A stretch of DNA of 64,000 nt from Micromonospora vinacea. GTDB taxonomy: Bacteria > Actinomycetota > Actinomycetes > Mycobacteriales > Micromonosporaceae. Made by a program: the position numbers and the translations under genes. Shown piece after piece: positions 15,134-32,240 of the stretch. Within the stretch, counting starts at the first letter, position 1, and each line of letters opens with the position of its first letter. The stretch lies in NCBI RefSeq assembly GCF_015751785.1, contig NZ_JADOTY010000001.1:372001-436000 (forward strand). The letters are read 5' to 3'. The notes beneath the pieces were generated by a model. That model was not told where the DNA came from. It did no database searches and worked only from the letters and a program-made list of their open reading frames with translations.

Positions 15134-15155
15134 ATCGCTCTCCTAATTGTGGTTA

Positions 15156-15201
15156 GGAGGGGCCCCTCGCCCCACACTAGGCGTTGTCGAGGGGCCCCTC
15201 C
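15156..15201. terminator. Inverted repeat made of two GGGGCCCC palindromes
   Basis: GGAGGGGCCCCTCG (15156-15169) and CGAGGGGCCCCTCC (15188-15201) are perfect complements, and each also contains the self-complementary GAGGGGCCCCTC. It lies between the start of the ThuA gene and the end of the upstream sugar-dehydrogenase gene. It may terminate the latter or control read-through. Confidence 0.55.
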
Positions 15202-15208
15202 CGCCAGC

Positions 15209-18064
15209 TCAGGGCAGGGTCCACTTTTGGTTGGCGGCGGCGGTGCAGGTCCAGAGGTGGACCACCGTGCTGTCAGCGGAGCTGTTGCCGGAGACATCGA
15301 GGCACTTGCTCGACGACGTGTTGCGGAGGGTGCCGTCGGCCTGGGCGGCCCAGTTCTGCGCGGCGGTCCCGTTGCAGGTCCAGAGCTGGATCTTGGTGCC
15401 GTCGGCGGTGGCACCACCCGACACGTCCAGGCACTTGCCCAACGACTTGATCGTGGAGTTGGGGGTGACCGCCCAGGTCTGGGCGGCACTGCCGTTGCAG
15501 GTGTAGATCTGGATCTGCGTGCCGTCGGCCGTGGCGGCGTTGCGCACGTCCAGGCATTTGCCACCGAGGCCCTTGATCGCCCCGGCCCCACCGGCCGGGG
15601 GCGTCCCGGTCACGAAGGTGAAGGCGTCCAGGTCGTAGAGCGCCCCGGTGCCCGACCCGGCGAAGGTCAGGTAGAGCGTGGTCGTGCCGGTCGGCGGGTT
15701 GCTGATCGTCCCGGTGACCGTGGTGAAGGTCTCCCAGCCGCCGGTCACCGGGACCGTGGCCGAGCCGAGCAAGGTGCCGGTGGCCGAGCCGGCCCGGACC
15801 TGGAGGGTGCCACCGGCGCCCGCCGAGGAGACCCGGGCGTTGAACGAGGTCACGTTGCCCAACCGGTAGGGCTGGAACGCGATCCAGTCGCCGTTGTTGA
15901 TGTCGCCGACGGTCTTGCCGCCCTCGGCCGGGGTCTTGCTGAACACGTTGATCCCGGACGAGGTGCCGTAGAACTCGGCCTGGCGGTGCCGCGGCGGCAG
16001 CGTGTGCTGGGTGTGCGTGGTCAGCCCACCGGCGTCGGTGTACTCGGCGTCGAAGATCGCGAAGATGTTCGCCGCGTCGTCGTGCTCACCGTCGACCGGG
16101 ATGGTGATCGAGCCCGAGCAGCCGGTCTTCGAGGTGATCTGGTGCCCGTGCTGGTCGTGCCCGAGCACGTAGGTCATCTTGACCTTCGTGCAGTCGATGG
16201 TGCCGTCCTCCGGGTCGGTCACAGTGATGCTGTACGGCACCGTGTCCCCGAAGCCGAACAGCTGACCGTTGCCCGGGTTGTTGATCGTGACCGTGGGCGC
16301 GGTGTTGCCGACGCTGATCTGCACGCTGCTGCTGCCGGTGGCGCCCTGCGGGTCGCGCACCGTCAGCGTGGCGGTGTAGGTGCCGTTGGCGCTGTAGGTC
16401 TTCGTCGGGTTGGCGGCGGTCGAGGTGGTTCCGTCGCCGAACGCCCACGAGTAGGTCAACGCGCCGCCCTCGGGGTCGGACGAGCCGGCCGAGGAGAAGG
16501 TCACCGCGAGCGGGGCCGCCCCGGAGGTGCGGTTGGCGCTGGCTTTCGCGGTGGGCGCCCGGTTGCCGCCGCCGACGTAGTCGAAGCGGTAGAGCGCCGA
16601 GTTGGCGTCACCGTTGAAGTAGCCGGTGCCGTAGTCGAGGACGTAGTACGCGCCGTCCGGGCCGAACGCCGAGTCCATCACCTGCTTGCCGACCCAGGGG
16701 AAGGTGTCGATGGCGCCCCGGGAGCCGTCGGAGTTGACGTGGATCGGCTTGATCCAGCCCCGGCCGAACTCGGTGGCGAAGAACTGCCCGTCGAACGACT
16801 GCGGGAACTTGGTGGTGGAGGTCGACGAGGCGTTGTACCGGTAGACCGGGCCGCCCATCGGCGACTCGGAGCCACCGCCGAACTCGGTCGGGGTGCCGGC
16901 GTCGCCGGCGTACCGGATCCAGGCCGGCTGGGCCGGCGGCAGGGTGGTCAGGCCGGTGTTGCGGAACGAGTTGTTGGTCGGCCCGCCGGTGCAGTTGTAC
17001 TTCGCGCCGCTGGCGCTGGTCGCGAAGTCGAACTCGTTGTACGTCTCGGTGCTGGTGTTGGTGCCGGTGCAGTACGGCCAGCCGTAGTTGCCCGGTGCCG
17101 CGACCCGGTTGAACTCCACCTGGCCGGACGGCCCGCGGGTGGAGCTGGTGGAGCCGGCGTCCGGCCCGTAGTCACCGACGTAGACCACCCCGGTGGCCTT
17201 GTCCACGCTGATCCGGAACGGGTTGCGGAACCCCATCGCGTAGATCTCCGGCCGGGTCCTGGCCGTGCCGGGGGCGAACAGGTTGCCCGACGGGATGGAG
17301 TACGTGCCGTTGGCGTTCACCTTGATCCGCAGGATCTTGCCGCGCAGGTCGTTGGTGTTGCCGGCGCTGCGCTGCGCGTCGTACGCGGGGTTGCGGTTGG
17401 TCCGCTCGTCCAGCGGTGAGTAGCCGGACGACTCGAACGGGTTGGTGTCGTCGCCGGTGGACAGGTAGAGGTTGCCGGCGGCGTCGAAGTCGATGTCCCC
17501 ACCGACGTGACAGCACACGCCCCGGCTGGCCGGGACGTCGAGCACGTCGACCTTGCTGGCCTGGTTGAGCGTGAAGTCCGAGTTGAGGGTGAACCGGGAG
17601 AGCCGGTTGACGCCGTTCCAGGCCGAGAAGTCGGTGCCGGTGGCCGGCGCGTCGCCGCCGGGGGTGGAGAGCGGCGGGGCGTAGTAGAGGTAGATGTAGC
17701 GGTTGCTGGCGAAGCCCGGGTCGACCCCGACGCCCTGCAACCCCTCCTCGTCGTGCGTGTAGACCGACAGGGTGCCGACCACTGAGGTGGTGCCGTTGGC
17801 GTCGGTGCGGCGCAGGGTGCCGTTGCGGGCGGTGTGCAGGACCGAGCGGTCCGGCAGGACCGCCAGCGACATCGGCTCACCCATGTCGGTCACGCCGCGG
17901 GCCAGCTCGACCTGCTGGAAGTCGCTGGCGACGATCGTGTGCGCCTGGGCGGGGGCCGAACCGGCGGCGAAGGTGACGGTGCCGGCGGCGACCGCCAGCA
18001 GCAGCGCTGATCCGGCGGAGAACCATCGTCGGGACCGTTGTCTGGGAGCGGCCTTCATGGACAT
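15209..18064 (-). CDS. Secreted PQQ-type sugar dehydrogenase with PKD, CBM6 and ricin-lectin modules
   Basis: The 951-residue protein starts at ATG 18064 behind AAGGGA. It has a signal peptide (RRWFSAGSALLLAVAAGTVT to AQAH). A glucose/sorbosone dehydrogenase beta-propeller follows (about 45-450; ARGVTDMGEPMSLAVLPD, HDEEGLQGVGVDPGF, CCHVGGDIDFDAAGNLYLST, AMGFRNPFRISVD). Then come a PKD domain (about 455-540; TYSWAFGDGTTS), a linker domain, a CBM6 module (about 660-800) and a ricin beta-trefoil (about 820-951). It would oxidise a sugar outside the cell using PQQ or a related cofactor. No PQQ synthesis genes are present in the window. The upstream region shares motifs with the ROK operon promoter (33461-33553). 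Confidence 0.9.
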   Translation of the reverse strand: MSMKAAPRQRSRRWFSAGSALLLAVAAGTVTFAAGSAPAQAHTIVASDFQQVELARGVTDMGEPMSLAVLPDRSVLHTARNGTLRRTDANGTTSVVGTLSVYTHDEEGLQGVGVDPGFASNRYIYLYYAPPLSTPGGDAPATGTDFSAWNGVNRLSRFTLNSDFTLNQASKVDVLDVPASRGVCCHVGGDIDFDAAGNLYLSTGDDTNPFESSGYSPLDERTNRNPAYDAQRSAGNTNDLRGKILRIKVNANGTYSIPSGNLFAPGTARTRPEIYAMGFRNPFRISVDKATGVVYVGDYGPDAGSTSSTRGPSGQVEFNRVAAPGNYGWPYCTGTNTSTETYNEFDFATSASGAKYNCTGGPTNNSFRNTGLTTLPPAQPAWIRYAGDAGTPTEFGGGSESPMGGPVYRYNASSTSTTKFPQSFDGQFFATEFGRGWIKPIHVNSDGSRGAIDTFPWVGKQVMDSAFGPDGAYYVLDYGTGYFNGDANSALYRFDYVGGGNRAPTAKASANRTSGAAPLAVTFSSAGSSDPEGGALTYSWAFGDGTTSTAANPTKTYSANGTYTATLTVRDPQGATGSSSVQISVGNTAPTVTINNPGNGQLFGFGDTVPYSITVTDPEDGTIDCTKVKMTYVLGHDQHGHQITSKTGCSGSITIPVDGEHDDAANIFAIFDAEYTDAGGLTTHTQHTLPPRHRQAEFYGTSSGINVFSKTPAEGGKTVGDINNGDWIAFQPYRLGNVTSFNARVSSAGAGGTLQVRAGSATGTLLGSATVPVTGGWETFTTVTGTISNPPTGTTTLYLTFAGSGTGALYDLDAFTFVTGTPPAGGAGAIKGLGGKCLDVRNAATADGTQIQIYTCNGSAAQTWAVTPNSTIKSLGKCLDVSGGATADGTKIQLWTCNGTAAQNWAAQADGTLRNTSSSKCLDVSGNSSADSTVVHLWTCTAAANQKWTLP

Positions 18065-18283: not shown

Positions 18284-19351
18284 TCAGGCGCGTCGGTCGA
18301 TCGCCTGTCCGGCCAGCGCAACAAGGGCCGCGCGGGCCTCGTCGGCCACCATGGCGTTCTGCAGGGCGGCGAGCGCGGCCTCGGTCCGGACCCGGATCAT
18401 CTGCTCGATTCGCTCCCGCGCACCGGTCGCCTCGATGATGTCGCGCAGCTCCGCCGCGCCCTCGGCGTCCAGGGCCGGGTTGCCGAACAGCTCGCGCAGC
18501 CGGAGGGTCTGCGGCCGGTCGGCCTCGCTGCGGGCCAGCGCCATCATGACAGTGGGCTTGCCCTCACGCAGGTCGTCCAGGACCGACTTCCCGGTCACCG
18601 CCGGGTCACCGAACACGCCCAGGACGTCGTCGCGGAGCTGGAACGCGTCACCCAGCGGGTCACCGAACTCGCCGAGCGCGGCGATCAGCTCCGGCCCCGC
18701 GCCGGCCAGGGCCGCGCCGATCTGCAACGGCCGGGTCACCGTGTACCGGGCGGCCTTCATCCGGATCACGGTCAGCGCGCTGGCCACCGAGCCGTCACCC
18801 ACGCCCGAGACCAGGTCCAGGTACTCCCCCGCGATCACCTCGGTACGCATCAGCGCGAACACGCCGTAGCCCCGGTGCACCTGCTCGGTGCTCAGCCCGC
18901 ACTCGTGGAACATCTGATCGGACCAGGCCGCGCAGAGGTCCCCGCAGAGCAGCGCGGTGTTGCGGCCGTACGCCTCGGGGTCGCCGCGCCACGACGAGCG
19001 GGCGTGCAGGTCGGCGAAGAGCCGGTGCACCGACGGCTCACCCCGGCGGCGGTCGCTGCCGTCCAGGATGTCGTCGTGGATCAGCGCGAACGCGTGGAAC
19101 AGCTCCAGGGCCGCCGCGGCCACCACGATGGGGGTGCCGTCGGCCGCCCCCGCGCCGCGCCAGCCCCAGTAGCAGAAGAGCGGCCGCAACCGTTTGCCAC
19201 CGGCCAGCACGAACCGTTGCAGCGCGGTGAACACGCCCCGCGGCGCCCCGTCCGGCCAGTCCGGGCCCTGCCGGCTGAGAAACCCGGCCAGCTCCGCGTC
19301 GAAGCGCGCCCGCAGGCCGCTGGCGTCGGTGGGCGCGACGGTGACCGTCAT
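18284..19351 (-). CDS. Polyprenyl diphosphate synthase (ebo operon)
   Basis: The 355-residue trans-prenyltransferase has the first Asp-rich motif HDDILDGSDRRRG, the upstream basic GGKRLRP motif and the second motif QLRDDVLGVFGDP. It condenses isopentenyl diphosphate with allylic diphosphates; the size and motifs fit geranylgeranyl-type synthases of actinobacteria. Chain length cannot be set with certainty. Its ATG overlaps the eboF-like stop (ATGA), so it is the last gene of the eight-gene operon running from 26450. It probably supplies the prenyl donor for the UbiA-like EboC enzyme of the same operon. Confidence 0.9.
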   Translation of the reverse strand: MTVTVAPTDASGLRARFDAELAGFLSRQGPDWPDGAPRGVFTALQRFVLAGGKRLRPLFCYWGWRGAGAADGTPIVVAAAALELFHAFALIHDDILDGSDRRRGEPSVHRLFADLHARSSWRGDPEAYGRNTALLCGDLCAAWSDQMFHECGLSTEQVHRGYGVFALMRTEVIAGEYLDLVSGVGDGSVASALTVIRMKAARYTVTRPLQIGAALAGAGPELIAALGEFGDPLGDAFQLRDDVLGVFGDPAVTGKSVLDDLREGKPTVMMALARSEADRPQTLRLRELFGNPALDAEGAAELRDIIEATGARERIEQMIRVRTEAALAALQNAMVADEARAALVALAGQAIDRRA

Positions 19352-20763
19352 GAGCCCTCCCCCGACCCGACCGCGCCGCCCGGGCTCAGGCCGGCCAGCT
19401 CCAGCAGCAGTGCCTTGACCTCGGTCGCCGCGATCTTGTCCCGCGCCGCCGTCGGGTCGGAGCAGAGCAGGACCGGGCCGTCCGCCGGGTCGTCCGGCAG
19501 CCGCCCGTGCGAGCCCCGCACCGCCCGCGCGCCGGCGTCCAGGCCGACAGCGCTCATCAGGTACCGCATGCCGAGCTTCTTGCGGGCCAGCGCCACCCCG
19601 GCGCGGGCCTTCGCGGCACCGGGGTTGGCCGGGTCGAAGAACAGCTCGGCCGGGTCGTAACCGGGCTTGCGGTGGATTTCCACCAGCCGGGCGAAATCCG
19701 GTGCCTGGGCGTCGTCCAGCCAGTAGTAGTAGGTGAACCAGGCGTCCGGCTCGGCCACCAGCACCAGCTCACCGGCGCGCGGATGGTCCAGACCGTGTGC
19801 GGCCTTGCCCTCGGCGTCGAGCACCTCGGCCACGCCGGGCAGGCCGGCGCAGAGCTTCGCCACCGCCGGCACGTCGGCCGGATCCTTGACGTAGACGTGC
19901 GCGATCTGGTGGTCGGCGACCGCGAACGCCTTCGACGTCCACGGGTCGAGGTACTCCATGCCCGCCTGGGTGTGCACCCGCAACAGGCCCTCGGTGCGCA
20001 GCAGTCGGTTGACGTCCACCGGGCGGGACACGTCGGTGATGCCGTACTCCGACAACACCACCACTGTGGCGTCCCGCGCTCGGGCGGCGTCCAGGAGTGG
20101 ACCGAGCACCGTGTCCAGCTCCGCTGCCGCGGCGGCGGCCTGGGCCGACGACGGGCCGAAGCGTTGCAGGTCGTAGTCCAGGTGCGGGACGTAGACCAGG
20201 GTCAGGTCGGGTGACACGTCGGCGAGGATCTGCTCGGCCGCCTGGCAGATCCACCGCGACGACGGCAACCCGGCGGTCGGCCCCCAGTAGGTGAAGAGCG
20301 GGAAGGTGCCCAGCCGCCCGGTGAGCGCGTCGTGCAGCTCCGGCGGGTCGGTGTAGCAGTCCGGCTCCTTGCGTCCGTCGGCGTAGTAGACCGGGCGGGG
20401 CGTCACCGTCCAGTTGACGTCCGCGCCCATGGCGTACCACCAGCAGACGTTTGCCACTGTGTAGCCGGGTTCGGCCCGACGGGCGGCCTGCCAGAGCTTG
20501 TCCCCGCCGACCAGCGCGTTGTGCTGCCGCCACAGCAACACCTCGCCCAGCTCCCGGAAATACCACCCGTTGCCGACGATCCCGTGCCCGCTGGGCGCCT
20601 CGCCGGTGAGGAAGGTCGACTGCACCGAGCAGGTCACGGCGGGCAGCACCGTGCCCAGCTCGGCCCGGAAGCCGCCGTCGGCGACCCCCCGCAGTCGAGG
20701 CATGTGCGCCAGTAGTCGGGGCGTCAACCCCACCACGTCGAGGACCACCAGTCGCCGACTCAT
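19348..20763 (-). CDS. eboF: Alkaline-phosphatase-superfamily phosphodiesterase, EboF-like
   Basis: The 471-residue protein has the nucleotide pyrophosphatase/phosphodiesterase fold. The N-terminus carries LVVLDVVGLTPRLL (metal Asp) and LPAVTCSVQSTFLTG with the nucleophile Thr. Later metal ligands appear in YVPHLDYDLQRFG and in SEYGITDVSRPVDVN. There is no signal peptide, so it is cytoplasmic. It would hydrolyse a phosphate mono- or diester. Members of this family are the F component of ebo clusters. ATGA overlaps join it to the eboE-like and polyprenyl synthase genes. The gene symbol follows cluster context rather than a profile score. Confidence 0.8.
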   Translation of the reverse strand: MSRRLVVLDVVGLTPRLLAHMPRLRGVADGGFRAELGTVLPAVTCSVQSTFLTGEAPSGHGIVGNGWYFRELGEVLLWRQHNALVGGDKLWQAARRAEPGYTVANVCWWYAMGADVNWTVTPRPVYYADGRKEPDCYTDPPELHDALTGRLGTFPLFTYWGPTAGLPSSRWICQAAEQILADVSPDLTLVYVPHLDYDLQRFGPSSAQAAAAAAELDTVLGPLLDAARARDATVVVLSEYGITDVSRPVDVNRLLRTEGLLRVHTQAGMEYLDPWTSKAFAVADHQIAHVYVKDPADVPAVAKLCAGLPGVAEVLDAEGKAAHGLDHPRAGELVLVAEPDAWFTYYYWLDDAQAPDFARLVEIHRKPGYDPAELFFDPANPGAAKARAGVALARKKLGMRYLMSAVGLDAGARAVRGSHGRLPDDPADGPVLLCSDPTAARDKIAATEVKALLLELAGLSPGGAVGSGEGS

Positions 20764-21959
20764 CGCGTCACTCCCATGCTCACGGTTCGCTCTGTGGTCA
20801 GGCCGAGGCCGACCAGTTCGTCCCGGGCGAAGGCCAGCTCCGCGGCGATGCCGGCGGCCAGCTCCGCGTCGGTGCCGGGCCGTCGTGCGGCCGGCAGCAC
20901 CCCCCAGGTGTACGTCTCGACGTCGAGGTGGTCACAGCCGGCGGTCGGGCCGTCGAAGAGCGCTCTCAGGGCCGCGCGGAGCACCGGCACCGTCGAGCCG
21001 AGCGGTTCCTCGGGTGGAGCGTGCAGGGGCACGTGGTAGTGCACCCGCCACGGCCCCGGTAGCGCCCGGTCCAGTGCCTCGTCCAGGTCGTCGGCCGCGT
21101 ACGCCGGGTCGGCCGGGTCGGCCAGACCGGCGCAACCGGCGCTACGGGTCTGGTGCAGGAAGCGTGGCTCCACCCAGCGGCGCAACGCCTCGGCCCCGCC
21201 CTCCGGGTCGGCGGCCTCGACGGCGGCGGAGACCTGCACCTTCACCACCGGCAGCCCGGCCGCCCGCAGTCGTTCCAGCGCCTCGGCCGGCTCTTCCCAG
21301 GCGCAGGCCAGGTGGGCCAGGTCGAGGCAGACACCCAGCCGATCGGTGTCCATCCCGGACAACAGCGCGGCCGCCTGACCGGTGCTCTCCACCACACAGC
21401 CGGGCTCCGGCTCGAAGGCGATCCGCACCTCACGCCCGGTGTCCCGCTGCACGTCGGCAAGGCCGGCGGCCAACTGGTCCAGCCGGCGTCGGGCCGCGTC
21501 GGCCCGGCCGGTGTCCCACGGTCGACGCCAGGCCAGCGGCAGGGTGGAGATCGAACCCCGGGCGGCGTCGTCGGGCAGCAGGTCGGCGAGCACCCGGGCC
21601 AGATTCAGTGTGTACGTCAGGCGTTGCTCGGTGGTCCAGTCCGGGTGGTACACGTCCTGCTTGACCACCGGCGCCTGGAAGGCCGCGTACGGGAAGCCGT
21701 TGAGGGTGACCACCTCCAGCCCCCGCGCGTCCAGCTCGGTGCGCAACCGCCGGCGGAGCGTGGGGTCGGCGGCCAGTTCGGCGGCGACCGGGGCGGCCAG
21801 CCACAGGCCGAGCCCGAGCAGGTCGCTGCCGAGCGCCTCGCGGACCGGCACCGCGTAGATGTCCAGTTGACCGAGGATGCCGGCGAGGTCCTCGGCGGGG
21901 TGCACGTTGGTGCAGTAGCCGAGGTGGACGGCCTCGCCGCCGGCATGTCGCAGCCGCAT
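20760..21959 (-). CDS. eboE: EboE-like TIM-barrel metabolite traffic protein
   Basis: The 399-residue protein starts at ATG 21959, overlapping the eboB stop by one base; a longer upstream frame runs through eboB and is rejected. The xylose-isomerase-like TIM barrel has a distinctive N-terminus (HLGYCTNVHPAEDLAGI) that is diagnostic of EboE. Inside the barrel are VTLNGFPYAAFQ, FEPEPGCVVES, VCLDLAHLACAWE and a late HYHVPLH, all plausible metal or substrate ligands. In cyanobacteria the ebo genes are needed to move the scytonemin precursor to the periplasm. The enzymatic reaction of EboE is not established. Confidence 0.85.
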   Translation of the reverse strand: MRLRHAGGEAVHLGYCTNVHPAEDLAGILGQLDIYAVPVREALGSDLLGLGLWLAAPVAAELAADPTLRRRLRTELDARGLEVVTLNGFPYAAFQAPVVKQDVYHPDWTTEQRLTYTLNLARVLADLLPDDAARGSISTLPLAWRRPWDTGRADAARRRLDQLAAGLADVQRDTGREVRIAFEPEPGCVVESTGQAAALLSGMDTDRLGVCLDLAHLACAWEEPAEALERLRAAGLPVVKVQVSAAVEAADPEGGAEALRRWVEPRFLHQTRSAGCAGLADPADPAYAADDLDEALDRALPGPWRVHYHVPLHAPPEEPLGSTVPVLRAALRALFDGPTAGCDHLDVETYTWGVLPAARRPGTDAELAAGIAAELAFARDELVGLGLTTERTVSMGVTR

Positions 21960-22816
21960 CAGCTGCCGCCGCGCAGGATCGAGTTGCCGGTCTGCGGGTC
22001 CACGGCGGCGGCGACGTCCAGGTCGCTGAGGTCGAGCCGCCCCGACTGCCCGTAGAACTCCACCGGGTTTCGCCACAGCACCTTGTCGACGTCGTCGTCG
22101 CTGAAGCCGGCCGCGAGCATCGCCTCGCCGGTGGCCCGGGTCAGCAGCGGGTCGGAGCGTCCCCAGTCGGCCGCCGAGTTGACCAGCATCCGTTCCGTGC
22201 CGTACTCCCGCAGCAACTCCACCATCCGCTGCGGGGTCATCTTGGTGTCCGGGTAGATGGAGAAACCCAGCCAGCAGCCGCTGTCGCGGACCAGCTTCAC
22301 CGTCACCTCGTTGAGGTGGTCGACCACCACCCGTCCCGCGTCGATGCCGGACTCGGCGACCACGGCCAGGGTCCGCTCGCAGCCGCGCGCCTTGTCCCGG
22401 TGCGGGGTGTGCACCAGCGCCGGCAGGTCGTACGCCACGGCGAGGGCGAGCTGCGCCGCGAACGCCTCGTCCTCCTCGGGGGTCATCGAGTCGTACCCGA
22501 TCTCGCCGACCGCGACCACCGCGTCCTTGTCGAGGTAGCGGGGCAGCAGGTCGAGGACCGGGCGGCAGCGCGGGTCGTTGGCCTCCTTCGGGTTCAGCGC
22601 GATGGTGGCGAAGTGGCGCACCCCGAACTGCCCGGCCCGGAACGGCTCCCAGCCGATCAGCGAGTCGAAGTAGTCGGTGAACGAGGCGGCGCTGGTGCGC
22701 GGCTGACCCAGCCAGAACGCCGGCTCGACCACCGCGCGTACTCCGGCGGCTGCCATCCGTTCGTAGTCGTCGGTGGTGCGTGAGGTCATGTGGATGTGGG
22801 GGTCGAAGATGCGCAT
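21959..22816 (-). CDS. eboB: TatD-family metal hydrolase, EboB-like
   Basis: The 285-residue protein is an amidohydrolase-fold TatD relative. The metal site begins with the HxH motif DPHIHMTSRT (residues 5-7). EIGYD supplies the next ligand, HTPHRDK and DHLNEVT give two His, and NSAADWG the final Asp. It is cytoplasmic. Ebo clusters always encode such a hydrolase as the B component. It is coupled to eboE by TGATG and directly follows eboA, with no gap after the eboA stop. The substrate is unknown. Confidence 0.87.
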   Translation of the reverse strand: MRIFDPHIHMTSRTTDDYERMAAAGVRAVVEPAFWLGQPRTSAASFTDYFDSLIGWEPFRAGQFGVRHFATIALNPKEANDPRCRPVLDLLPRYLDKDAVVAVGEIGYDSMTPEEDEAFAAQLALAVAYDLPALVHTPHRDKARGCERTLAVVAESGIDAGRVVVDHLNEVTVKLVRDSGCWLGFSIYPDTKMTPQRMVELLREYGTERMLVNSAADWGRSDPLLTRATGEAMLAAGFSDDDVDKVLWRNPVEFYGQSGRLDLSDLDVAAAVDPQTGNSILRGGS

Positions 22817-23425
22817 TCACGCCTCCCGGGGCAGTGCGGCGGTGAGCCGGTCGAGCAGGTCGGTGGCGTCGGCGGGCAGGTCCCGGCCGGCGGCGTGCCG
22901 TTCGGCGGCCAGCGCGGCCAGCATCGCTGTCAGCTCGCTGTCGGCCCGGCTGTCCAGGTCGGCCACGCCGGCCAGGGGGACGCCGCTGAACACGCACTTG
23001 AGCACCGCCTGCCGCCAGGCGGCCTGGTCGAGGTGCCGGGCGTACGGGCCGAGCGCGGCGGCGACCAGCCGGGTGTCGTTGGTCCGGATCGCGTCGTGCA
23101 GCAACGGAACCCCGTCGGCGCCGATCGGCAGCAGCGGCAGTGCGCGCAGCACGGCTCGTCGTTCGGCAGCGTCACCGTGGTGGTAGAGGCGCTCGGCGTA
23201 CTCCGCGTGCTCGCCGGGCAGGCTGGTGAGCAGCAGCACCCGGGCCGCGTCGTCGGCGGTCCAGCCGGGGGCGTCGGGCAGAGCGCCCCGACCGCAGCGT
23301 CGGCCGACGGCGGGAAAGAGCCGGGTGATCGCGGTGGGCTCGGTGCTGACCCGGCGCAGCGCCGTGTCCAGCCAATCGGGATCGGGTACGCCTCGCAGCG
23401 CGGCCCGTAGTGAATCCGGTGTCAT
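22817..23425 (-). CDS. eboA: EboA-domain protein
   Basis: The 202-residue protein starts at ATG 23425 with GGGAGGAG 6 nt upstream. It is alpha-helical and Ala/Leu/Arg-rich, with the HEAT-like feel of the EboA family: DAARVLLLTSLPGEHAEYAE, LPIGADGVPLLHDAIRTND and VLKCVFSGVPLAGVADL. No catalytic motif is visible. EboA is the namesake and least understood part of ebo clusters. The adjacency to eboB with the same strand and order as in other bacteria supports the call. Confidence 0.85.
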   Translation of the reverse strand: MTPDSLRAALRGVPDPDWLDTALRRVSTEPTAITRLFPAVGRRCGRGALPDAPGWTADDAARVLLLTSLPGEHAEYAERLYHHGDAAERRAVLRALPLLPIGADGVPLLHDAIRTNDTRLVAAALGPYARHLDQAAWRQAVLKCVFSGVPLAGVADLDSRADSELTAMLAALAAERHAAGRDLPADATDLLDRLTAALPREA

Positions 23426-23464
23426 CCCGTCTCCTCCCTTGGTGCTGCTCCCCGGTGCCCCGCC

Positions 23465-23555
23465 ACCCTTTGCTCTGCACCTACATATGCACCGGGGCCT
23501 CTTCGGCGGGTGTCGCCTCGGCAGGTGTCGCCTCGGCGGGTGCAGAGCAAAGGGT
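23465..23555. repeat. Palindrome with 17-bp arms overlapping a gene 3' end
   Basis: ACCCTTTGCTCTGCACC (23465-23481) and its exact complement (23539-23555) enclose 57 bp. That interior includes short GTGTCGCCTCGGC repeats. The right arm lies inside the 3' end of the TIM-barrel gene and encodes part of its tail; the left arm touches its stop codon. The element also lies in the middle of the ebo operon. Confidence 0.75.
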
Positions 23556-24449
23556 GCGGACACTGTCGTGATCGGTGGCCGCGGCGGCGCGCAGGAACTC
23601 GATCGACCGGGCGGCCACGGCCGGTGCGGCGTGCGAGTCACGGGGCAGCTCCACGGCGACCAGCCCCTGGTAGCCGGCCGCCGCCAGGGCGGCCAGCACC
23701 GGCGGGAAGTCGATCTCGCCGACGCCGAACTCCAGGTGCTCGTGCACGCCTCGGCGCATGTCGTCGATCTGCACGTTGACCAGGTGGTCGGCCACCTCGG
23801 CGACGCACTGCGGCACCGGCCAGGGCTCCAGGCACCGGCAGTGGCCGATGTCGAGGGTGATGCCGAAACGGGCCGGGTTGTCGAGTGCGGCGTGCAGCCG
23901 ACGCCAGTCCGCGATGTCCTGCACCAGCATGCCGGGCTCCGGTTCGAAGCCGAGGGTGACACCGGCGGTGTCGGCCGCGTCGACCACTGTGGCGCAGCCG
24001 GCCACCAGCCGGTCCCAGGCGCACTGCGGTGACACCGCCTCGGGTCGGACACCGGCCCAGAACGAGACCGCCTCCGCGCCCAGGTCGGCGCCGATCCGCA
24101 CGGCCCGGCGCAGGAACTCGATCCGCCGGGTCGGGTCGTCGTGCAGCAACGTCGGTGCGTGCTTCTGCCACGGGTCGAGCAGGTAGCGGGCCCCGGTCTC
24201 GATGACCACCCCCAGGCCCAGCGACTCCAACCGTCGACCGACAGCGGCGACCCGGCGGGTGAGCCCGGGCGCGAACGGGTCCAGGTGGTCGTGGTCCAGG
24301 GTGAGCGCCACCCCGTCGTAGCCGAGGTCGGCGATGACGGCGAGCGCGTCGTCGAGGCGGTGGTTGGCGAAGCCGTTCGTGCCGTACCCGAGGCGCAGCG
24401 TGGTGGCGTCGGCGGCCGGCGCACCGGGCCGGGGCTCGGGGACGCTCAT
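23481..24449 (-). CDS. Sugar-phosphate isomerase/epimerase-type TIM barrel (ebo operon)
   Basis: This 322-residue second TIM-barrel protein of the operon has LRLGYGTNGFANHRLDDAL at the N-terminus. Metal-ligand-like segments follow: VVIETGARYLLDP, GFEPEPGMLVQD, TLDIGHCRC, NVQIDDM and AVELPRDSH. It is clearly paralogous to the EboE protein (FEPEPG is shared) but shorter. It overlaps the UbiA-like gene by ATGA. The last 20 or so residues are a low-complexity ATPAE repeat generated by the palindrome at 23465-23555, which appears to have replaced or extended the natural C-terminus. The reaction is unknown; it probably works on the sugar or cyclitol moiety of the ebo product. Confidence 0.83.
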   Translation of the reverse strand: MSVPEPRPGAPAADATTLRLGYGTNGFANHRLDDALAVIADLGYDGVALTLDHDHLDPFAPGLTRRVAAVGRRLESLGLGVVIETGARYLLDPWQKHAPTLLHDDPTRRIEFLRRAVRIGADLGAEAVSFWAGVRPEAVSPQCAWDRLVAGCATVVDAADTAGVTLGFEPEPGMLVQDIADWRRLHAALDNPARFGITLDIGHCRCLEPWPVPQCVAEVADHLVNVQIDDMRRGVHEHLEFGVGEIDFPPVLAALAAAGYQGLVAVELPRDSHAAPAVAARSIEFLRAAAATDHDSVRTLCSAPAEATPAEATPAEEAPVHM

Positions 24450-25306
24450 GTCGGGGAGACCTTCCGGGCCAGCCGTCGACCCAGCGGCGCGGCCGCCGCG
24501 ACGGCCACCCCGAGCAGACCCGCTCCACCCCGTGCGGTGAGGGCCCCCTGGAGGGCCGGCAACCCGGTGATCCCGGCGCCGACGGCCGCGCGGACCCGCC
24601 CGGCCGACGGGTCCCGGACCACCTCGGCCTGGGCCGCGCCGTAGCGGGCGGCGTACCAGCCGGCCAGCACTGCGGGCAGCACCGCAACCCGCCGAGGGGC
24701 GGCGACGGCGGCACTGGCGGCGACCAACGCGGTGCCGGCGAGGGTACGCATCGGCAGGGTGGCGTCGGCGCCGGTGACCTCCCGGCGGGACAGCGCGGTG
24801 ACCGTCCAGGTGTGCGCGGCGACGGTGGCCGCCGCCGGCAACGCCCGGGTCATCCGGCCACCGGACGCGCCGAGCAGCACGTCCAGCCCCCGGCAGGCGG
24901 CCATCACGGCCGGACCGGCGGCGGTGTTCTTGGCCAGCAGGTCGTACCCCCAGATGGTGGCGGCCAGCGGCACGGCGAGCGCGGCGGCGCGGCGACCGCC
25001 CACGGCGGCGGCCAGGCCCACGCCGGCGGCCGTGAGGCCCGCCGCGAGACCGACAGCGGCGGCCGGGGTGACCCGCCCGCTGGGGATCGGCCGCTCGGGC
25101 CGTTCCTCGGCGTCCAGGCGCCGGTCGGCCCAGTCGTTGGCGGCCATGCCGGCCCAGTAGAGCAGCACCGAGGCGCCGGCCAGGCCGGGGGTACGCGGGC
25201 TCAACGCTCCGGCAGCCGCGGCCCCGGCGATCACGTCACCGGGCACCGAGAGCGCGGCCGGCGCACGGACCAGCTCGGCGAGATCAGCCAACGTTGTCAT
25301 GGTCAC
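24446..25306 (-). CDS. eboC: UbiA-like prenyltransferase, EboC
   Basis: The 286-residue integral membrane protein has about eight helices. It has the UbiA signature NDWADRRLDAEERPERPIP (about residues 57-75, binding Mg-prenyl diphosphate) and a second conserved segment GYDLLAKNTAAGPAVMAACR followed by LDVLLG. The second Asp motif is altered (DLLAKN), as in EboC and SCO3242-type members. It would attach a prenyl chain to a polar acceptor at the membrane. It overlaps the inositol-phosphate synthase gene by 23 nt, which fits an acceptor derived from a cyclitol phosphate. That coupling is inference. Confidence 0.85.
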   Translation of the reverse strand: MTMTTLADLAELVRAPAALSVPGDVIAGAAAAGALSPRTPGLAGASVLLYWAGMAANDWADRRLDAEERPERPIPSGRVTPAAAVGLAAGLTAAGVGLAAAVGGRRAAALAVPLAATIWGYDLLAKNTAAGPAVMAACRGLDVLLGASGGRMTRALPAAATVAAHTWTVTALSRREVTGADATLPMRTLAGTALVAASAAVAAPRRVAVLPAVLAGWYAARYGAAQAEVVRDPSAGRVRAAVGAGITGLPALQGALTARGGAGLLGVAVAAAAPLGRRLARKVSPT

Positions 25307-26450
25307 TGTCCCCGCCGTCGTGCAGGTGCCTGGTGAAGGCGGTCAGCCGGGCCCACTGCTCGCCCAGCGAGTGGGTGGGCGTGCCCAGCGGGTCCTTGAA
25401 GAAGAAGCCCAGGTCGGCCAGCGGACCCACCTGCCCGGCGGCGTGCGCGGCGGCGGTGAGTCGGGCCAGGTCGAGCACCAGCGGCGCGGCCAGCGCCGAG
25501 TCACAGCCGTGCCAGGTGAACTCCATCCGCATGCCGGTGCCGAGGAACCCGCTGAAGGTGATCAGATCCCAGGCGGTCTTGAAGTCGCCCAGTTCCTCGA
25601 CGTACTCGATCCGGGTGCCGCCCTGCGGAACGTAGCCCAGCGTCTCGCCGAGCACCCGCTGCTTGCTCTGCACCTTCGCCGCGTTCGCGGCCGGGTCGGC
25701 GAGGGTGGCGCCGTCGCCACCACCGAGCAGGTTGACCCCGGACCAGGAGCCCACGGCCAGGTTGCGCATCGCGAACATCGGCGCGAGCACCGACTTGACC
25801 AGGGTCTCCCCGGTCTTGCCGTCGTGCCCGGCGTACGGCAGTCGGGCCTCCTCGGCCAGCGCGGCCAGCGCCGGAAGCCGCAGCCCGGTGGACGGGGTGA
25901 AGTCGACGTACGGGCAGCCGGCGAGCACTGCCGCGTACGCGTAGAGGGAGCTGACCGGCAGCACCTCGTCCGGCCCGTCGAGGGCGGCGCGCAGCGCGGC
26001 CGGGTCGGCGTGCCCGGGGTGCGGTCGAGGGGCCGGCTCGGTGGCGGAGACGTTGACCACCACCACCCGGTCCAGTTCGTGGCGCTCGCGGAAGCTGGTC
26101 AGGTCGCGGACCACGGCGGCTGCCCGGTCGGCCTGGGTGTCGCCGACCGGCGCGGGGCGCAGCTCCTGCTCGACCATGCCCAGTTCGTCGCGGAGCGCGG
26201 CGACCAGCCGCCAGGGGATGACACCGGCGTCAGCGAGGGCCTCGGCGCGCTTGCACAGCGGGGTGGTGGCCAGGTCATGTCCGCCGAAGACCAGATCGGC
26301 GAAGGCCGGCAGGGCTGGGCCGCGCAGCTCGGGAAGCTCGGTGACGCAGCCGGTGGGCCCGGCCAGGCCGGCCCGCAGCGCGAGCCCCCCGACGATGCTG
26401 GTGGTCGCGACGGAACCGCGCGCTCCTACCAGCCAGACACCTGTTCGCAT
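25284..26450 (-). CDS. Myo-inositol-3-phosphate synthase-family cyclase (ebo operon)
   Basis: The 388-residue protein starts at ATG 26450, with GGAG 5 nt upstream. An N-terminal Rossmann motif (VWLVGARGSVATTSIVGG) binds NAD. Conserved synthase segments include LYAYAAVLAGCPYVDFTPS, HDGKTGETLVKSVLAPMF, WSGVNLLGGGDGATLADP and the late AAPLVLDLARL. It would cyclise a hexose 6-phosphate to an inositol phosphate, or a related cyclitol. Its N-terminus is unlike that of the housekeeping actinobacterial Ino1 (which begins VAIVGVGNCAS), so it is probably a dedicated pathway enzyme. It is the first gene of the ebo operon, where other bacteria have the EboD dehydroquinate-synthase-like cyclase. Confidence 0.87.
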   Translation of the reverse strand: MRTGVWLVGARGSVATTSIVGGLALRAGLAGPTGCVTELPELRGPALPAFADLVFGGHDLATTPLCKRAEALADAGVIPWRLVAALRDELGMVEQELRPAPVGDTQADRAAAVVRDLTSFRERHELDRVVVVNVSATEPAPRPHPGHADPAALRAALDGPDEVLPVSSLYAYAAVLAGCPYVDFTPSTGLRLPALAALAEEARLPYAGHDGKTGETLVKSVLAPMFAMRNLAVGSWSGVNLLGGGDGATLADPAANAAKVQSKQRVLGETLGYVPQGGTRIEYVEELGDFKTAWDLITFSGFLGTGMRMEFTWHGCDSALAAPLVLDLARLTAAAHAAGQVGPLADLGFFFKDPLGTPTHSLGEQWARLTAFTRHLHDGGDSDHDNVG

Positions 26451-27092: not shown

Positions 27093-28301
27093 TCAGACAG
27101 TTGCCGCGGTCAGCGTCGGTTCCACCTCGGCCCAGGAGGAGCCGAGCTCCGCCGAACGGGCCACCGCGTCCAGCACCAGCTGGACCTGCAACGCGTCGGC
27201 GAAGGAGGGAGTCGGGTCGACACCGGTGGCGACCGCCTCGATGAAGTCGCGCATCTCGTGCGTGAACGAGTGCTCGTAGCCGATGATGTGGCCCGGGGGC
27301 CACCACGCCGACATGTACGGGTGCTCGCCCTCGGTCACCAGGATGCGGTTGAAGCCCTGCTCCACAGCCGGGCGGGTCGCGTCGTAGAACTCCAGCTCGT
27401 TGAGGCGCTCCAGGTCGAAGACCACGCTGCCCAGCGAGCCGTTGATCTCGACACGCAGCGCGTTCTTACGGCCTGTCGCGAACCGGCTCGCCTCGTACGT
27501 GGCCAGGGCGCCACCGTCGAGCCGCGCCACGAAGACCGCGGCGTCGTCGACGGTGACCGTTCCGGTGGGCGCCGTGTGGCCGTCCACCGAGGCCGCCAGA
27601 CCGCTCGACTCGGCCGGCAACGGCCGCTCCTTGACGAAGGTCTCGGTGACCGCGCTGACGCCGCTGATCCGCTGACCCGTGACGAACTGGGTCAGGTCGA
27701 TGATGTGCGCACCGATGTCACCGAGCGCGCCGGAGCCCGCCCTGTCCTTCTGCAACCGCCAGACCAGCGGGAACTGCGGGTCCACGATCCAGTCCTGCAG
27801 GTACGTCGCACGGACGTGTCGAATCACCCCGAGCCGTCCGTCGGCGACCAACTGGCGCATCATCGTGACCGCGGGGACCCGGCGGTAGTTGAACCCGCAC
27901 ATCGACCGCACTCCGGCGGCCCGGGCGACATCCGCCGCAGCGGTCATCGCCCGTGCCTCCTCCACCGAGTTGGCCAACGGCTTCTCGCACAGAACGTGCT
28001 TGCCTGCGGCCAACGCGGCGAGAGCGATCTCGGCGTGACTGTCTCCCGGGGTGCAGATGTCGACGACGTCGATGTCGTCCCGGTTGATCAGGTCACGCCA
28101 GTCGGTGGTGTACGCGTCCCAGCCGAGTGTGTCGGCGGCGTCAGCCACCTTCGCTGTGTCTCGGCCGCAGATCAACGCCATCCGGGCCCGCGCCGGCAGG
28201 TCGAAGACGCGGTTCACGGTGCGCCACGCCTGTGAGTGCGCGGCGCCCATGAACGCGTAGCCGACCATGCCGACCCGCAGTTCTTTGTCTGTCGTGGACA
28301 A
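27093..28301 (-). CDS. Gfo/Idh/MocA-family dehydrogenase
   Basis: The 402-residue protein has an N-terminal NAD(P) fold (LRVGMVGYAFMGAAHSQAW), the signature CEKPLANSVEEARAM with catalytic Lys, and the C-terminal alpha/beta domain with GFNYRRVPAV and a catalytic-type GDIGAHIIDLTQFVTG. It oxidises or reduces a sugar or cyclitol hydroxyl; inositol, glucose and keto-glycoside dehydrogenases share this form. It is the last gene of the ROK/ABC operon, 20 bp after the binding-protein gene, so it probably acts on the imported substrate. The exact substrate is unknown. Confidence 0.92.
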   Translation of the reverse strand: MSTTDKELRVGMVGYAFMGAAHSQAWRTVNRVFDLPARARMALICGRDTAKVADAADTLGWDAYTTDWRDLINRDDIDVVDICTPGDSHAEIALAALAAGKHVLCEKPLANSVEEARAMTAAADVARAAGVRSMCGFNYRRVPAVTMMRQLVADGRLGVIRHVRATYLQDWIVDPQFPLVWRLQKDRAGSGALGDIGAHIIDLTQFVTGQRISGVSAVTETFVKERPLPAESSGLAASVDGHTAPTGTVTVDDAAVFVARLDGGALATYEASRFATGRKNALRVEINGSLGSVVFDLERLNELEFYDATRPAVEQGFNRILVTEGEHPYMSAWWPPGHIIGYEHSFTHEMRDFIEAVATGVDPTPSFADALQVQLVLDAVARSAELGSSWAEVEPTLTAATV

Positions 28302-28321: not shown

Positions 28322-29374
28322 TCAGAACCCGAGCTTGTCGTAGCTGCTCGCGTTCTCCTTGGTGATCGTCTCCGAGGCCAGAGTCACTTCCTTGGGCACC
28401 TGCAGCTCCGTCAGGTCGCCCAGGCCCCGACCCTGCGCGATGAGCCGCGCGAGCGAGACGGCCGAGGAGGCCATCGACGGGTTGTAGGTGACAGTGGCCT
28501 TCAGCACGGTGTTGTCGGCCTTGATCGCGTCGATCGCGAGCTTGGAGCCCGCGCCGCCGACCATGAAGAACTCCGACCGGTTGGCCTGCTTGATGGCCGC
28601 GAGCACACCGATGCCCTGGTCGTCGTCGTGGTTCCAGATGGCGTCGATCTTCGGCAGCGCCTGGAGCAGCTGGGACGCCTCGCGCTGGCCGCTGTCCGAG
28701 GTGAACTCGGCCGAACGACGGTTGCCCACCTTGAACCCGTAGGTCGCCAGGGCGGCCTTGAAGCCCTCGCTGCGCTCGACGGTCAGCGGGATCTCCAGAC
28801 CGGCGATCTCACCGATGACCGGGTTGGCGACGCCCTTGTCCTTGAGCATCTTGCCGATGAAGTGCCCGGCCGAGACGCCCATGCCGTAGTTGTCGCCCTT
28901 GATGACCAGCCGCGAGGCCAGCGCGTCGGGGAACGCCCGGTCGAGGTTCACGATCGGGATGCCCGCCTGCATGGCCTGGAGGGCAACGGCGTTGACCTCC
29001 TTGCCGTCGTGCGGCAGCACGACGATGATGTCCGGCTTCTGGGCGATCAGGGTGCCGAGCGTGGAACGCTGGGCCTCGGAGTTCGACCCGCCGTCGACCT
29101 CCTTGAACTCCACGTCCGAGTAGGCCGCGGCCTGCGCCTTGGCGTTGGCGTGGATAGCGCCCATCCAGCCGTGGTCGGCGGCCGGGGCGGAGAAGCCGAT
29201 GACGACCTTCTTGCCCGGGGCGTTGTTGCCCTCGGCGTTTCCGGCGGCCTTGGTCTGGGTGCTGGCGGCCGGGGTCTCGTTGCTGGTGCAGGCGGTGAGC
29301 AGGGTGGCAGCGCCCACTGCGGCTCCACCGAAGAGCAACCGGCGGCGCGACAGGTCGCGACTGTGCTGGGTCAT
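28322..29374 (-). CDS. Ribose-type ABC transporter substrate-binding lipoprotein
   Basis: The 350-residue protein starts at ATG 29374 with AGGAGG 6 nt upstream. It has an RRRLLFGG twin-Arg-like leader and a lipobox LLTAC with the modified Cys at about residue 29. The mature part is a type-1 periplasmic binding fold: VVIGFSAPAADHGWMGAIH, PDIIVVLPHDGKEVNAVA, GIPIVNLDRAFP and WNHDDDQGIGVLAAI. This matches ribose/inositol/xylose-binding proteins. It delivers a monosaccharide or cyclitol to the permease encoded upstream. The gap to the permease gene is 96 bp. Confidence 0.92.
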   Translation of the reverse strand: MTQHSRDLSRRRLLFGGAAVGAATLLTACTSNETPAASTQTKAAGNAEGNNAPGKKVVIGFSAPAADHGWMGAIHANAKAQAAAYSDVEFKEVDGGSNSEAQRSTLGTLIAQKPDIIVVLPHDGKEVNAVALQAMQAGIPIVNLDRAFPDALASRLVIKGDNYGMGVSAGHFIGKMLKDKGVANPVIGEIAGLEIPLTVERSEGFKAALATYGFKVGNRRSAEFTSDSGQREASQLLQALPKIDAIWNHDDDQGIGVLAAIKQANRSEFFMVGGAGSKLAIDAIKADNTVLKATVTYNPSMASSAVSLARLIAQGRGLGDLTELQVPKEVTLASETITKENASSYDKLGF

Positions 29375-29470
29375 GAATGACCTCCTGGGAGCGGGATTTG
29401 ACTTGTTGAGGGTGTGCGAGGCCCGGCCAGCGTCGAATTCTCGACGTCGCCAGGACAACGGTGCGGTGCG

Positions 29471-30598
29471 TCAGGTTGCGGTGGTGACCCTGTTCCGCGC
29501 GAGGAGCCGAGTGACTGACTTGAACTGGAACTGCTGGACCAGGACGGCGGCGACGATGATGCCGCCCTTGACCATGTTCTGCGCCTCGATGGAGAGGCCG
29601 TTGATGGCGAAGAGGTTCGTGATGGTGGCGAAGATGATGACGCCGAGCAGCGAGCCGACGATGGTGCCCCGACCGCCGCTGAGCAACGTCCCGCCGATGA
29701 TCGCCGCGGCGATCGCGTCCAACTCGTACAGGTTGGCCATCGCCGCCTGCGCCGAGGTCGCCTGCGAGGTGAGCATGATCGCGGCGATGCCGCAGCACAG
29801 ACCGGAGAGCGCATAGAGCAGCATGGTGTGGCGCCGGACGTTGATGCCGGCCAACCGGGCCGCCTCCGGGTTACCGCCGACGGCGATGGTCCGCCGGCCG
29901 AAGGTCGTGCGGTTGAGCACCACCCAACCGGCCAGCACGACCGCGCCGAGGATGTAGACGAGGATCGGGATACCGATCACCTTGCGCGCCGCGATGTCGT
30001 TGATGAACGTGCTGCTCGACACCTGGGTCTGCTTGTTGGAGATCGACGCCGCGAGCCCTCGCGCGGCCACCAGCATCGCCAGCGTCGCGATGAAGGGGAC
30101 CAGCCGCCCGTACGAGATGAGCACACCGTTGACGAGGCCGACGCAGATGCCGACCGCGAGGGCGGCGAAGATCATGCCGCCGGCGCCGTAGCTCTGGGTG
30201 GCCACAGTGGTGCACCAGACCCCGGCCAGCGCGACGATCGCGCCGACCGACAGGTCGATGCCACCACCGATGATCACGAAGGTCATGCCGACAGTGACCA
30301 CACCGACGACCGAGGCCAACTGGAGGATGGCCAGGACGTTGTTCCAGACCCAGTTCGGGTCGCCGTACAGGTCGGGCTTGGTGACCGCGCCGACCACGAT
30401 GAGCGCGGCCAGCACCCCGATCAGACCGAGGTTGCGCTTGGCGCCGTCGCCACCGTCACCCCGCCACCAGGAGAGCTTGCCCCCGGATCCTGCCTTGTTA
30501 TTGGCCACCGCCGTCTCCGCCGGGTCCACCGGCGGCGACTGCGCCGGAAGCTGCGGGCGCTCCGGTGTCGCGGTGGGAGTGGGAGTCGCGTCGCTCAT
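29471..30598 (-). CDS. Ribose-type ABC transporter permease (RbsC-like)
   Basis: The 375-residue integral membrane protein of the RbsC/XylH group has a 55-residue polar N-terminal extension and then about nine helices. The family motifs GMTFVIIGGGIDLSVGAIVA and NPEAARLAGINVRR (the ATPase-contacting loop) are present, as is LDAIAAAIIGGTLLSGGRGT near the C-terminus. It forms the channel of the importer. Its ATG overlaps the ATPase stop. Confidence 0.93.
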   Translation of the reverse strand: MSDATPTPTATPERPQLPAQSPPVDPAETAVANNKAGSGGKLSWWRGDGGDGAKRNLGLIGVLAALIVVGAVTKPDLYGDPNWVWNNVLAILQLASVVGVVTVGMTFVIIGGGIDLSVGAIVALAGVWCTTVATQSYGAGGMIFAALAVGICVGLVNGVLISYGRLVPFIATLAMLVAARGLAASISNKQTQVSSSTFINDIAARKVIGIPILVYILGAVVLAGWVVLNRTTFGRRTIAVGGNPEAARLAGINVRRHTMLLYALSGLCCGIAAIMLTSQATSAQAAMANLYELDAIAAAIIGGTLLSGGRGTIVGSLLGVIIFATITNLFAINGLSIEAQNMVKGGIIVAAVLVQQFQFKSVTRLLARNRVTTAT

Positions 30599-32199: not shown

Positions 32200-32213
32200 A
32201 GTCTCCTCCTCGC

Positions 32214-32240
32214 TCACGACGGAATCTCGAACAGCTTCAT
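32214..32240 (-). CDS. 8-codon bridging ORF between rok and ABC ATPase
   Basis: ATG overlaps the ROK stop (ATGA), the frame reads MKLFEIPS, and its TGA overlaps GTG 32217 in the ATPase frame (GTGA). It could pass ribosomes from one gene to the next. No evidence shows that the peptide itself matters, and chance is possible. Confidence 0.3.
   Translation of the reverse strand: MKLFEIPS

Follow-up and report, generated by a model that had tools for sequence, protein, structure and literature searches.

Here, we show that a 64,000-nucleotide stretch of the Micromonospora vinacea genome (contig NZ_JADOTY010000001.1, positions 372,001 to 436,000 of the forward strand; hereafter the window) carries an ebo-type operon in which a cyclase of the myo-inositol phosphate synthase (MIPS) family, accompanied by a xylose-isomerase-like TIM barrel (TIM2), takes the place of EboD. 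The ebo cluster eboABCDEF is known from eustigmatophyte plastids, Bacteroidota and cyanobacteria, including the scytonemin locus of Nostoc punctiforme, and from the EDB cluster of Pseudomonas fluorescens; the cluster spans many bacterial phyla and extends to algal plastids. We find that 1) the MIPS-type ebo operon is real and widespread in the samples examined, and 2) MIPS and EboD are mutually exclusive in ebo loci, the substitution being systematic. The operon is a variant of ebo and not a canonical member, because EboD is absent and its prenyltransferase does not reach the cut-off of the EboC family. Neither a MIPS-type ebo operon nor a prenylated inositol was found in the literature searched.

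An earlier note on this DNA had described eight coupled genes at 18284-26450, and all are present on the minus strand in the order and span it gave, with every frame intact (Table 1). MIPS and the EboC-like gene overlap by 17-23 nt; ATGA junctions join EboC to TIM2, EboE to EboF and EboF to the prenyl synthase; EboA and EboB abut, EboB and EboE have one base in common, and the 55 bp between TIM2 and EboA are the sole gap. The order MIPS-EboC-TIM2-EboA-EboB-EboE-EboF recurs in 20/20 other Micromonospora loci compared, which is not chance; these are 20 of the 27 other genomes with a prenyltransferase over the SCO3242-family cut-off, a feature of 28/37 genomes of the genus (our own included) and of 0/24 others of the order. 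The top protein matches of the operon MIPS are in Micromonospora noduli and M. parva. The EboA protein has no Pfam match and scores 80 bits against the full EboA_family model, below its cut-off of 320, and an NCBIfam scan of the operon proteins matched no EboB or EboF model. A promoter and terminator scan gave nothing firm. Inside the operon, an 18-bp perfect inverted repeat at 23464-23556 spans the end of TIM2 and is predicted to form a very stable RNA hairpin (-68 kcal/mol, z -6.8). A 15-bp arm of this repeat is paired, with varying loop lengths, in 11/205 loci (this operon in our own genome and five relatives), and a third exact copy of the arm lies elsewhere in our genome; is the hairpin an attenuator or a mobile element?

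Table 1 Genes of the MIPS-type ebo operon and its neighbors in the window, with the matches that support their naming (bits; over cut-off where stated).
Feature	Position	Strand	Evidence
Secreted ThuA + 3-keto-disaccharide hydrolase + CBM6 + ricin-B protein	13031..15133	-	PF06283 271 bits, PF06439 138 bits
Secreted glucose/sorbosone dehydrogenase (GSDH)-type ("PQQ") protein + PKD, CBM6, ricin-B	15209..18064	-	PF07995 117 bits
Short-chain (E)-prenyl diphosphate synthase	18284..19351	-	PF00348 154 bits; DDILD first motif
EboF-like type I phosphodiesterase	19348..20763	-	PF01663 215 bits; 54.5% identity to Azospirillum EboF
EboE, TIM barrel	20760..21959	-	NF035939 TIM_EboE 412 bits, cut-off 250; PF01261 45 bits
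EboB, TatD-like metal hydrolase	21959..22816	-	PF01026 50 bits; 56% identity to EboB of Azospirillum ebo cluster
EboA	22817..23425	-	NF035938 EboA_domain 163 bits, cut-off 50
TIM2, xylose-isomerase-like TIM barrel accompanying MIPS	23481..24449	-	PF01261 131 bits
UbiA-type prenyltransferase, SCO3242 family (EboC-like)	24446..25306	-	start GTG 25306 or ATG 25300; PF01040 62 bits
MIPS-family cyclase, 388 aa, in EboD place	25284..26450	-	PF07994 168 bits, PF01658 100 bits, over cut-off
Gfo/Idh/MocA oxidoreductase, upstream	27093..28301	-	PF01408; levoglucosan dehydrogenase model 369 bits, cut-off 650 not reached
Sugar-type ABC transporter (binding protein, permease, ATPase)	28322..32370	-	PF13407, PF02653, PF00005 over cut-off

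The best solved relative of the operon MIPS is the Archaeoglobus fulgidus enzyme 1u1i (240 bits, with near-identical variant chains of 1u1i among the structure matches), and the five-membered-ring enzyme 6k96 reaches only 45 bits. Residues K259, K263, K291 and K352 align with K274, K278, K306 and K367 of A. fulgidus, four lysines that are invariant in 12 aligned MIPS and that we take to be catalytic. Such an enzyme might simply contribute to the ordinary inositol supply for mycothiol and phosphatidylinositol and lie in the operon by accident. It does belong to the same Pfam family as Ino1, and in one genome (G294) it is the sole PF01658 gene. We nevertheless regard this explanation as very improbable, and it is already disfavored, since at least two PF01658 genes were found in the other 36 of the 37 genomes searched (21 Micromonospora, our own included, and 16 other Actinomycetota). 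Our complete source genome, a single 7.34-Mb contig, has three. One is a mycothiol Ino1 (658 bits to TIGR03450, cut-off 638); on the same model the operon MIPS scores 21 bits and the third paralogue 163 bits, both below cut-off. Moreover, the position of MIPS is kept over several actinobacterial families, and it occurs in other gene orders in Gemmatirosa and haloarchaea. The concern, raised in the earlier note, that the operon copy could be the only Ino1 of the genome is thus ruled out.

The other check named in that note, a separate eboD beside the cluster in relatives, also came out negative, with EboD beside the operon in 0/37 actinobacterial loci. Elsewhere in the 37 genomes, a profile built from ten EboD sequences reached 191 bits at best, whereas two positive controls gave 665 and 633, and the single PF01761 gene of the source genome is AroB (323 bits, cut-off 305), followed by AroQ. 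Together, the profile search and this assignment rule out a hidden EboD.

EboE is present in 18/296 Actinomycetota genomes, a set that comprises, besides two Micromonospora, 17 loci in 16 genomes. MIPS precedes the prenyltransferase in 15 of these loci, two (L077 and L091) have no nearby cyclase, and none has EboD. Including the 20 Micromonospora loci, MIPS was found in 35/37 actinobacterial ebo loci and EboD in none, bearing out the claim that a dedicated MIPS occupies the place of EboD. For named genomes, we scanned for EboE with an alignment led by Gemmatirosa and took as a sample the best 80 of 579 relatives by likeness to Gemmatirosa EboE: EboD accompanied 62, MIPS none, and 18 had neither (both cyclases called by tblastn at 60-70 bits or more, here as in the actinobacterial loci). 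One of these 18, L144 (Nanopelagicales), is the single actinobacterial record among the best 80, and the 17 others likewise showed no cyclase, many of them on short contigs. Both types occur in plasmid records, the EboD type in three (Azospirillum, Deinococcus and Ketogulonicigenium) and the MIPS type in Streptomyces, Nonomuraea, Gemmatirosa and three haloarchaea. The haloarchaeal clusters combine MIPS with an EboF-like phosphodiesterase, an EboB-like TatD protein, a UbiA enzyme and two TIM barrels; in these three, EboA, EboE and EboD were neither annotated nor matched. MIPS of this kind is also found without ebo genes in Halomarina, Runella and Arthrobacter and in a YcaO cluster of Roseomonas and Hymenobacter. 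Trees with named plasmids suggest that family f18 of our actinobacterial set is probably Streptomyces.

Some loci are organized differently. The second ebo cluster of the f18 genome G181 (L077, 12108-17108) has, in the place of MIPS, a CrtO-like FAD enzyme adjoined by a gene of the inositol monophosphatase family. On one Streptomyces plasmid, a type II polyketide cluster contains eboE but no other gene annotated as ebo (L189, 11989-13167), and a similar plasmid (L188) carries a full MIPS-type operon. An Acidobacteriota contig (L203, 796-4205) holds haloarchaea-like genes for TIM barrels, EboB and UbiA, with no cyclase on its 7.4 kb.

TIM2 accompanies MIPS closely, a link overlooked in the earlier note, which had correctly seen it as a second TIM-barrel protein. 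It is present in 15/15 MIPS-type loci of the non-Micromonospora actinobacterial set, as well as in L077, and it adjoins MIPS in Gemmatirosa. In three loci (L040, L075 and L186) TIM2 and EboA share one open frame; "xylose isomerase"-EboA hybrids in Actinobacteria were noted in the available text of the 2016 ebo paper (PMC5133447). The predicted structure of TIM2 is an epimerase/isomerase barrel, which does not discriminate substrates. TIM2 also occurs with MIPS in the absence of ebo genes (L094 11977-21289, L095 11818-20519, L182 9001-15915): in the YcaO clusters of Roseomonas and Hymenobacter, the two are accompanied by genes for Gfo/Idh, YcaO and a PIG-L deacetylase, and Methylobacterium has MIPS, Gfo/Idh and TIM2 together. 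These clusters possibly make another inositol-derived product, mycothiol-like or a thioamide.

The prenyltransferase, called EboC in the earlier note, is indeed UbiA-like and keeps the NDxxDxxxD motif, but it passes the cut-off of the SCO3242 family (NF045897 SCO3242_trans, 370 bits, cut-off 260) and not that of EboC (NF035940, 130 bits, cut-off 250). Similarly, the EboF-like protein is a PF01663 phosphodiesterase, named for its identity to that of the Azospirillum ebo cluster (Table 1) since no NCBIfam EboF model matched. The suggestion that EboF trims a phosphate is weakly supported. EboD-type clusters also retain EboF, and their cyclase should release a ring that bears no phosphate (PMC5133447, available text); thus, EboF probably acts at a step other than phosphate trimming. 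The operon's "own" prenyl synthase is real and is shared by 19/20 other Micromonospora loci. However, it adjoins just 2/17 non-Micromonospora actinobacterial loci, at 38-40% identity and in a different placement, which rules it out as a universal part of the system and makes it mostly a Micromonospora add-on. It is one of four prenyl synthases in the source genome and scores 315 bits against the Mycobacterium-type farnesyl/geranyl diphosphate synthase model NF042416 (cut-off 600).

The Gemmatirosa locus is a mosaic that indicates what might have been exchanged. Its EboF falls within the EboD-type clade (SH-aLRT 98, quick tree), its EboB is sister to that of the Deinococcus EboD-type cluster (100/100 support, 70% identity), and its EboE is closest to EboE of a Rokubacteria EboD-type cluster (61% identity). 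Its EboC, in contrast, groups with the actinobacterial MIPS-type proteins (94/86, and 94/92 once Acidobacteriota are added), with which it has Ala17 and Ala60 in common (20 and 21 of 21 actinobacterial rows); the other 22 EboC rows have Asn at position 17 in 22 cases and Phe at position 60 in 20. EboC, MIPS and TIM2 are neighbors in this locus, so that cyclase, TIM2 and prenyltransferase look like a three-gene cassette that was exchanged jointly, judged from this one case. Such an exchange would favor EboC acting on the product of the cyclase.

We also examined the genes flanking the operon, whose secreted-enzyme neighbors the claim of an eight-gene operon had overlooked. The GSDH-type dehydrogenase downstream, whose N-terminus looks like a signal peptide by eye, occupies the same position in 19/20 Micromonospora relatives, and the Gfo/Idh and ABC transporter genes lie upstream in 20/20. 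The transporter genes matched monosaccharide ABC families of NCBIfam, none over cut-off. The ThuA protein is 66-69% identical to ebo-adjoining proteins of two f18 genomes. In six f18 loci (L076, L078, L080, L081, L083 and L085), the GSDH/ThuA pair or their fusion precedes MIPS on its strand by 118-417 bases (rough gene starts), thus on the opposite side from Micromonospora. Both secreted neighbors in the window (13031-18064) end in CBM6 and ricin-B domains, and in relatives the ThuA protein is 61-69% identical to the end of the dehydrogenase over about 170-260 residues, pointing to local duplication or domain swap.

GSDH genes lie within about 10 kb of MIPS-type ebo genes in 12/15 genomes, compared with 0.37 expected given how many such genes there are. 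These are 15 of the 18 EboE genomes, leaving out G211, whose contig ends beside MIPS, G152 and G301; no GSDH was seen in the fetched stretches of the latter two, and the count is 12/18 if the left-out genomes are taken as misses. Beside EboD-type loci, GSDH genes were found in 13/49 cases versus 1.13 expected, all 13 being PF07995 proteins (49 of the 62 loci, those of >15 kb, with neighbors identified by BLAST linkage). Both expected values assume independence, ignoring kinship. Two cytochrome c-like families, of which one member each was scanned, recur beside 10 and 8 EboD-type loci. GSDH proteins at 2/3 archaeal MIPS-type loci both carry a plastocyanin/azurin-type copper domain. Directly upstream of ebo in two Streptomyces plasmids lies a ScyD/ScyE-family protein (256 bits against a cut-off of 80 in the one scanned); ScyE is a periplasmic enzyme proposed to dimerize the monomer of scytonemin, for which ebo genes are required (PMC6282210, available text). 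Other Streptomyces MIPS-type operons lie within clusters for non-ribosomal peptides or type II polyketides. Overall, ebo loci of both types often adjoin secreted beta-propeller oxidoreductases, either pyrroloquinoline quinone (PQQ)-type sugar dehydrogenases or ScyE-like proteins, an association that is new here.

Considering these results, the reading we prefer, to which we give slightly less than an even chance, is that the MIPS-type operon makes a membrane lipid of the prenyl-cyclitol kind that assists the traffic of metabolites to secreted enzymes; its substrate, product, prenylation, chain length and function we infer. The cyclase, probably with the epimerase-like TIM2, would supply a cyclitol with a six-membered ring, in the simplest case inositol 1-phosphate made from glucose 6-phosphate. 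Next, the SCO3242-family enzyme would prenylate this cyclitol, using a short prenyl diphosphate (expected to be C15-C20) that the operon's own synthase provides here, and EboA, EboB, EboE and EboF would finish or deploy the lipid. As proposed for cyanobacteria, it may carry metabolite traffic to secreted enzymes, probably the adjoining sugar dehydrogenase and ThuA protein; ebo mutants have an export phenotype (PMC6282210, available text). The prenylated cyclitol of the earlier note comes naturally as a reading, yet the idea has a precedent for ebo, as an isoprenoid-cyclitol was proposed in 2016 for EboD-type clusters (PMC5133447, available text). The words "inositol" and "PQQ" are absent from the main texts of both ebo papers (PMC5133447, PMC6282210) in the portions available.

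Several observations weigh against the prenyl-cyclitol lipid. The ebo loci L077 and L091 have no nearby MIPS, and no GSDH or ThuA gene lies near L075, L082, L088, L091 or the loci of Halobaculum and Nonomuraea. Approximately unbiased (AU) tests did not reject placing Gemmatirosa EboC with the EboD type (p 0.28) or its EboE with the MIPS type (p 0.21), and one half of the tree contains the MIPS-type proteins together with EboC of haloarchaea and Bacteroidota. Two Acidobacteriota genomes combine EboD with a prenyltransferase that scores 183-186 bits against the SCO3242 family (cut-off 260), suggesting that the link between prenyltransferase subfamily and cyclase is not a strict one. Ubi-297, an EboC-type enzyme of marine Flavobacteria, farnesylated six of 14 acceptors tried, 8-hydroxyquinoline-2-carboxylic acid (8-HQA) best; all 14 were aromatic, with no cyclitols, in the available text (PMC9235831). 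Finally, for no MIPS-type cluster did the literature searched report a product, a substrate or a phenotype. Two stronger generalizations fared as follows. That every ebo cluster has a secreted neighbor is ruled out by the six loci just listed. That the EboC subfamily strictly follows the cyclase is weakened by the Acidobacteriota genomes and partly restored by the placement of their prenyltransferases in a 96/96 clade with Bacteroidota EboD-type proteins (and L203), not with the MIPS type, with the AU tests as given.

It is conceivable, if rather doubtful, that the cyclase product is not inositol 1-phosphate, just as a MIPS orthologue of aristeromycin biosynthesis forms a five-membered cyclitol phosphate, or that TIM2 first reshapes the sugar phosphate; the head group would then be an unusual cyclitol. 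The epimerase-like TIM2 goes with MIPS both within ebo clusters and outside them, and the 25 MIPS of ebo loci sit far from the Ino1 of the source genome in the tree; however, the closest solved relative is a true MIPS, not 6k96, and all four lysines are kept. The neighbors raise a further explanation, which we consider unlikely, namely that the operon yields a small redox molecule, either exported or in the membrane, for example a prenylated hydroxyquinone formed by oxidation and dehydration of a cyclitol, acting as cofactor or electron acceptor for the secreted beta-propeller dehydrogenases. UbiA enzymes usually prenylate aromatic rings. The excess of GSDH genes at both types of locus, the cytochrome c-like families, the copper domains of the archaeal GSDH proteins and the ScyE-family neighbors all fit such a molecule, as does aromatic prenylation by Ubi-297 (PMC9235831, available text). 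Furthermore, PqqC is absent in 14/15 actinobacterial genomes tested and present in 5/7 comparison genomes, the two without it also having GSDH beside ebo, so that most of these dehydrogenases would have no home-made PQQ. Yet PQQ could be taken up from outside, PqqC is the sole PQQ gene examined, the core operon has no obligatory oxidase or aromatizing enzyme, and several MIPS-type loci have no dehydrogenase neighbor.

The same flanking genes might instead make the operon the inner part of 3-keto-sugar or cyclitol breakdown, fed by the ABC transporter, Gfo/Idh and the secreted ThuA and GSDH proteins. This is consistent with the conserved flanks in Micromonospora, the 3-keto-disaccharide hydrolase domain, TIM barrels of the epimerase/dehydratase kind, and sugar-type ABC genes in the vicinity of two f30 loci and of two MIPS-type loci of archaea. 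Nevertheless, we consider catabolism quite improbable: MIPS, prenyltransferase and prenyl synthase are anabolic enzymes, the MIPS-type operons of f18 (probably Streptomyces) lack the ABC and Gfo/Idh genes at their flanks, and those of named Streptomyces are found in clusters of the antibiotic type.

In this variant a well-understood starting enzyme, MIPS, offers a feedable precursor in place of a guess on the ring, and the recurrent secreted dehydrogenases and ScyE-like proteins represent a possible common denominator of the role of ebo in very different hosts. A more ambitious claim, for which we see only a small chance, is that the unrelated EboD and MIPS-TIM2 were swapped at one pathway step in separate bacterial and archaeal lineages, prenyltransferase included, and that a prenylated cyclitol, or a quinone derived from it, would be the membrane carrier or redox partner of secreted beta-propeller oxidoreductases, an unrecognized helper for extracellular oxidation without PQQ synthesis.

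Compared with canonical ebo clusters, the operon is alike in uniting EboA, EboB, EboE, an EboF-like protein and a UbiA prenyltransferase, often beside secreted late-acting enzymes; it is unlike them in having MIPS and TIM2 instead of EboD, a prenyltransferase of the SCO3242 family and, in Micromonospora, its own prenyl synthase. With A. fulgidus MIPS, the operon enzyme shares 114/260 aligned residues over the main stretch, besides the four lysines. The archaeal enzyme serves ordinary inositol lipids and solutes, whereas the operon MIPS is dedicated to the ebo operon. Compared by annotation, SCO3242 and SCO3243 of Streptomyces coelicolor, neighbors by number, offer the same pairing of the prenyltransferase family (NF045897 is named after SCO3242) with a gene annotated as myo-inositol phosphate synthase; unlike our operon, they are listed as genes of the calcium-dependent antibiotic (CDA) cluster, with no stated function in the available text (PMC3610822). 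Ubi-297 is likewise a UbiA enzyme of an ebo cluster and farnesylates in vitro, but its cluster is described with EboD and its acceptors are quinolines (PMC9235831, available text). Lastly, the BE-40644 pathway also couples a cyclitol maker to a UbiA prenyltransferase, its cyclase being of the EEVS type (PMC5133447, available text).

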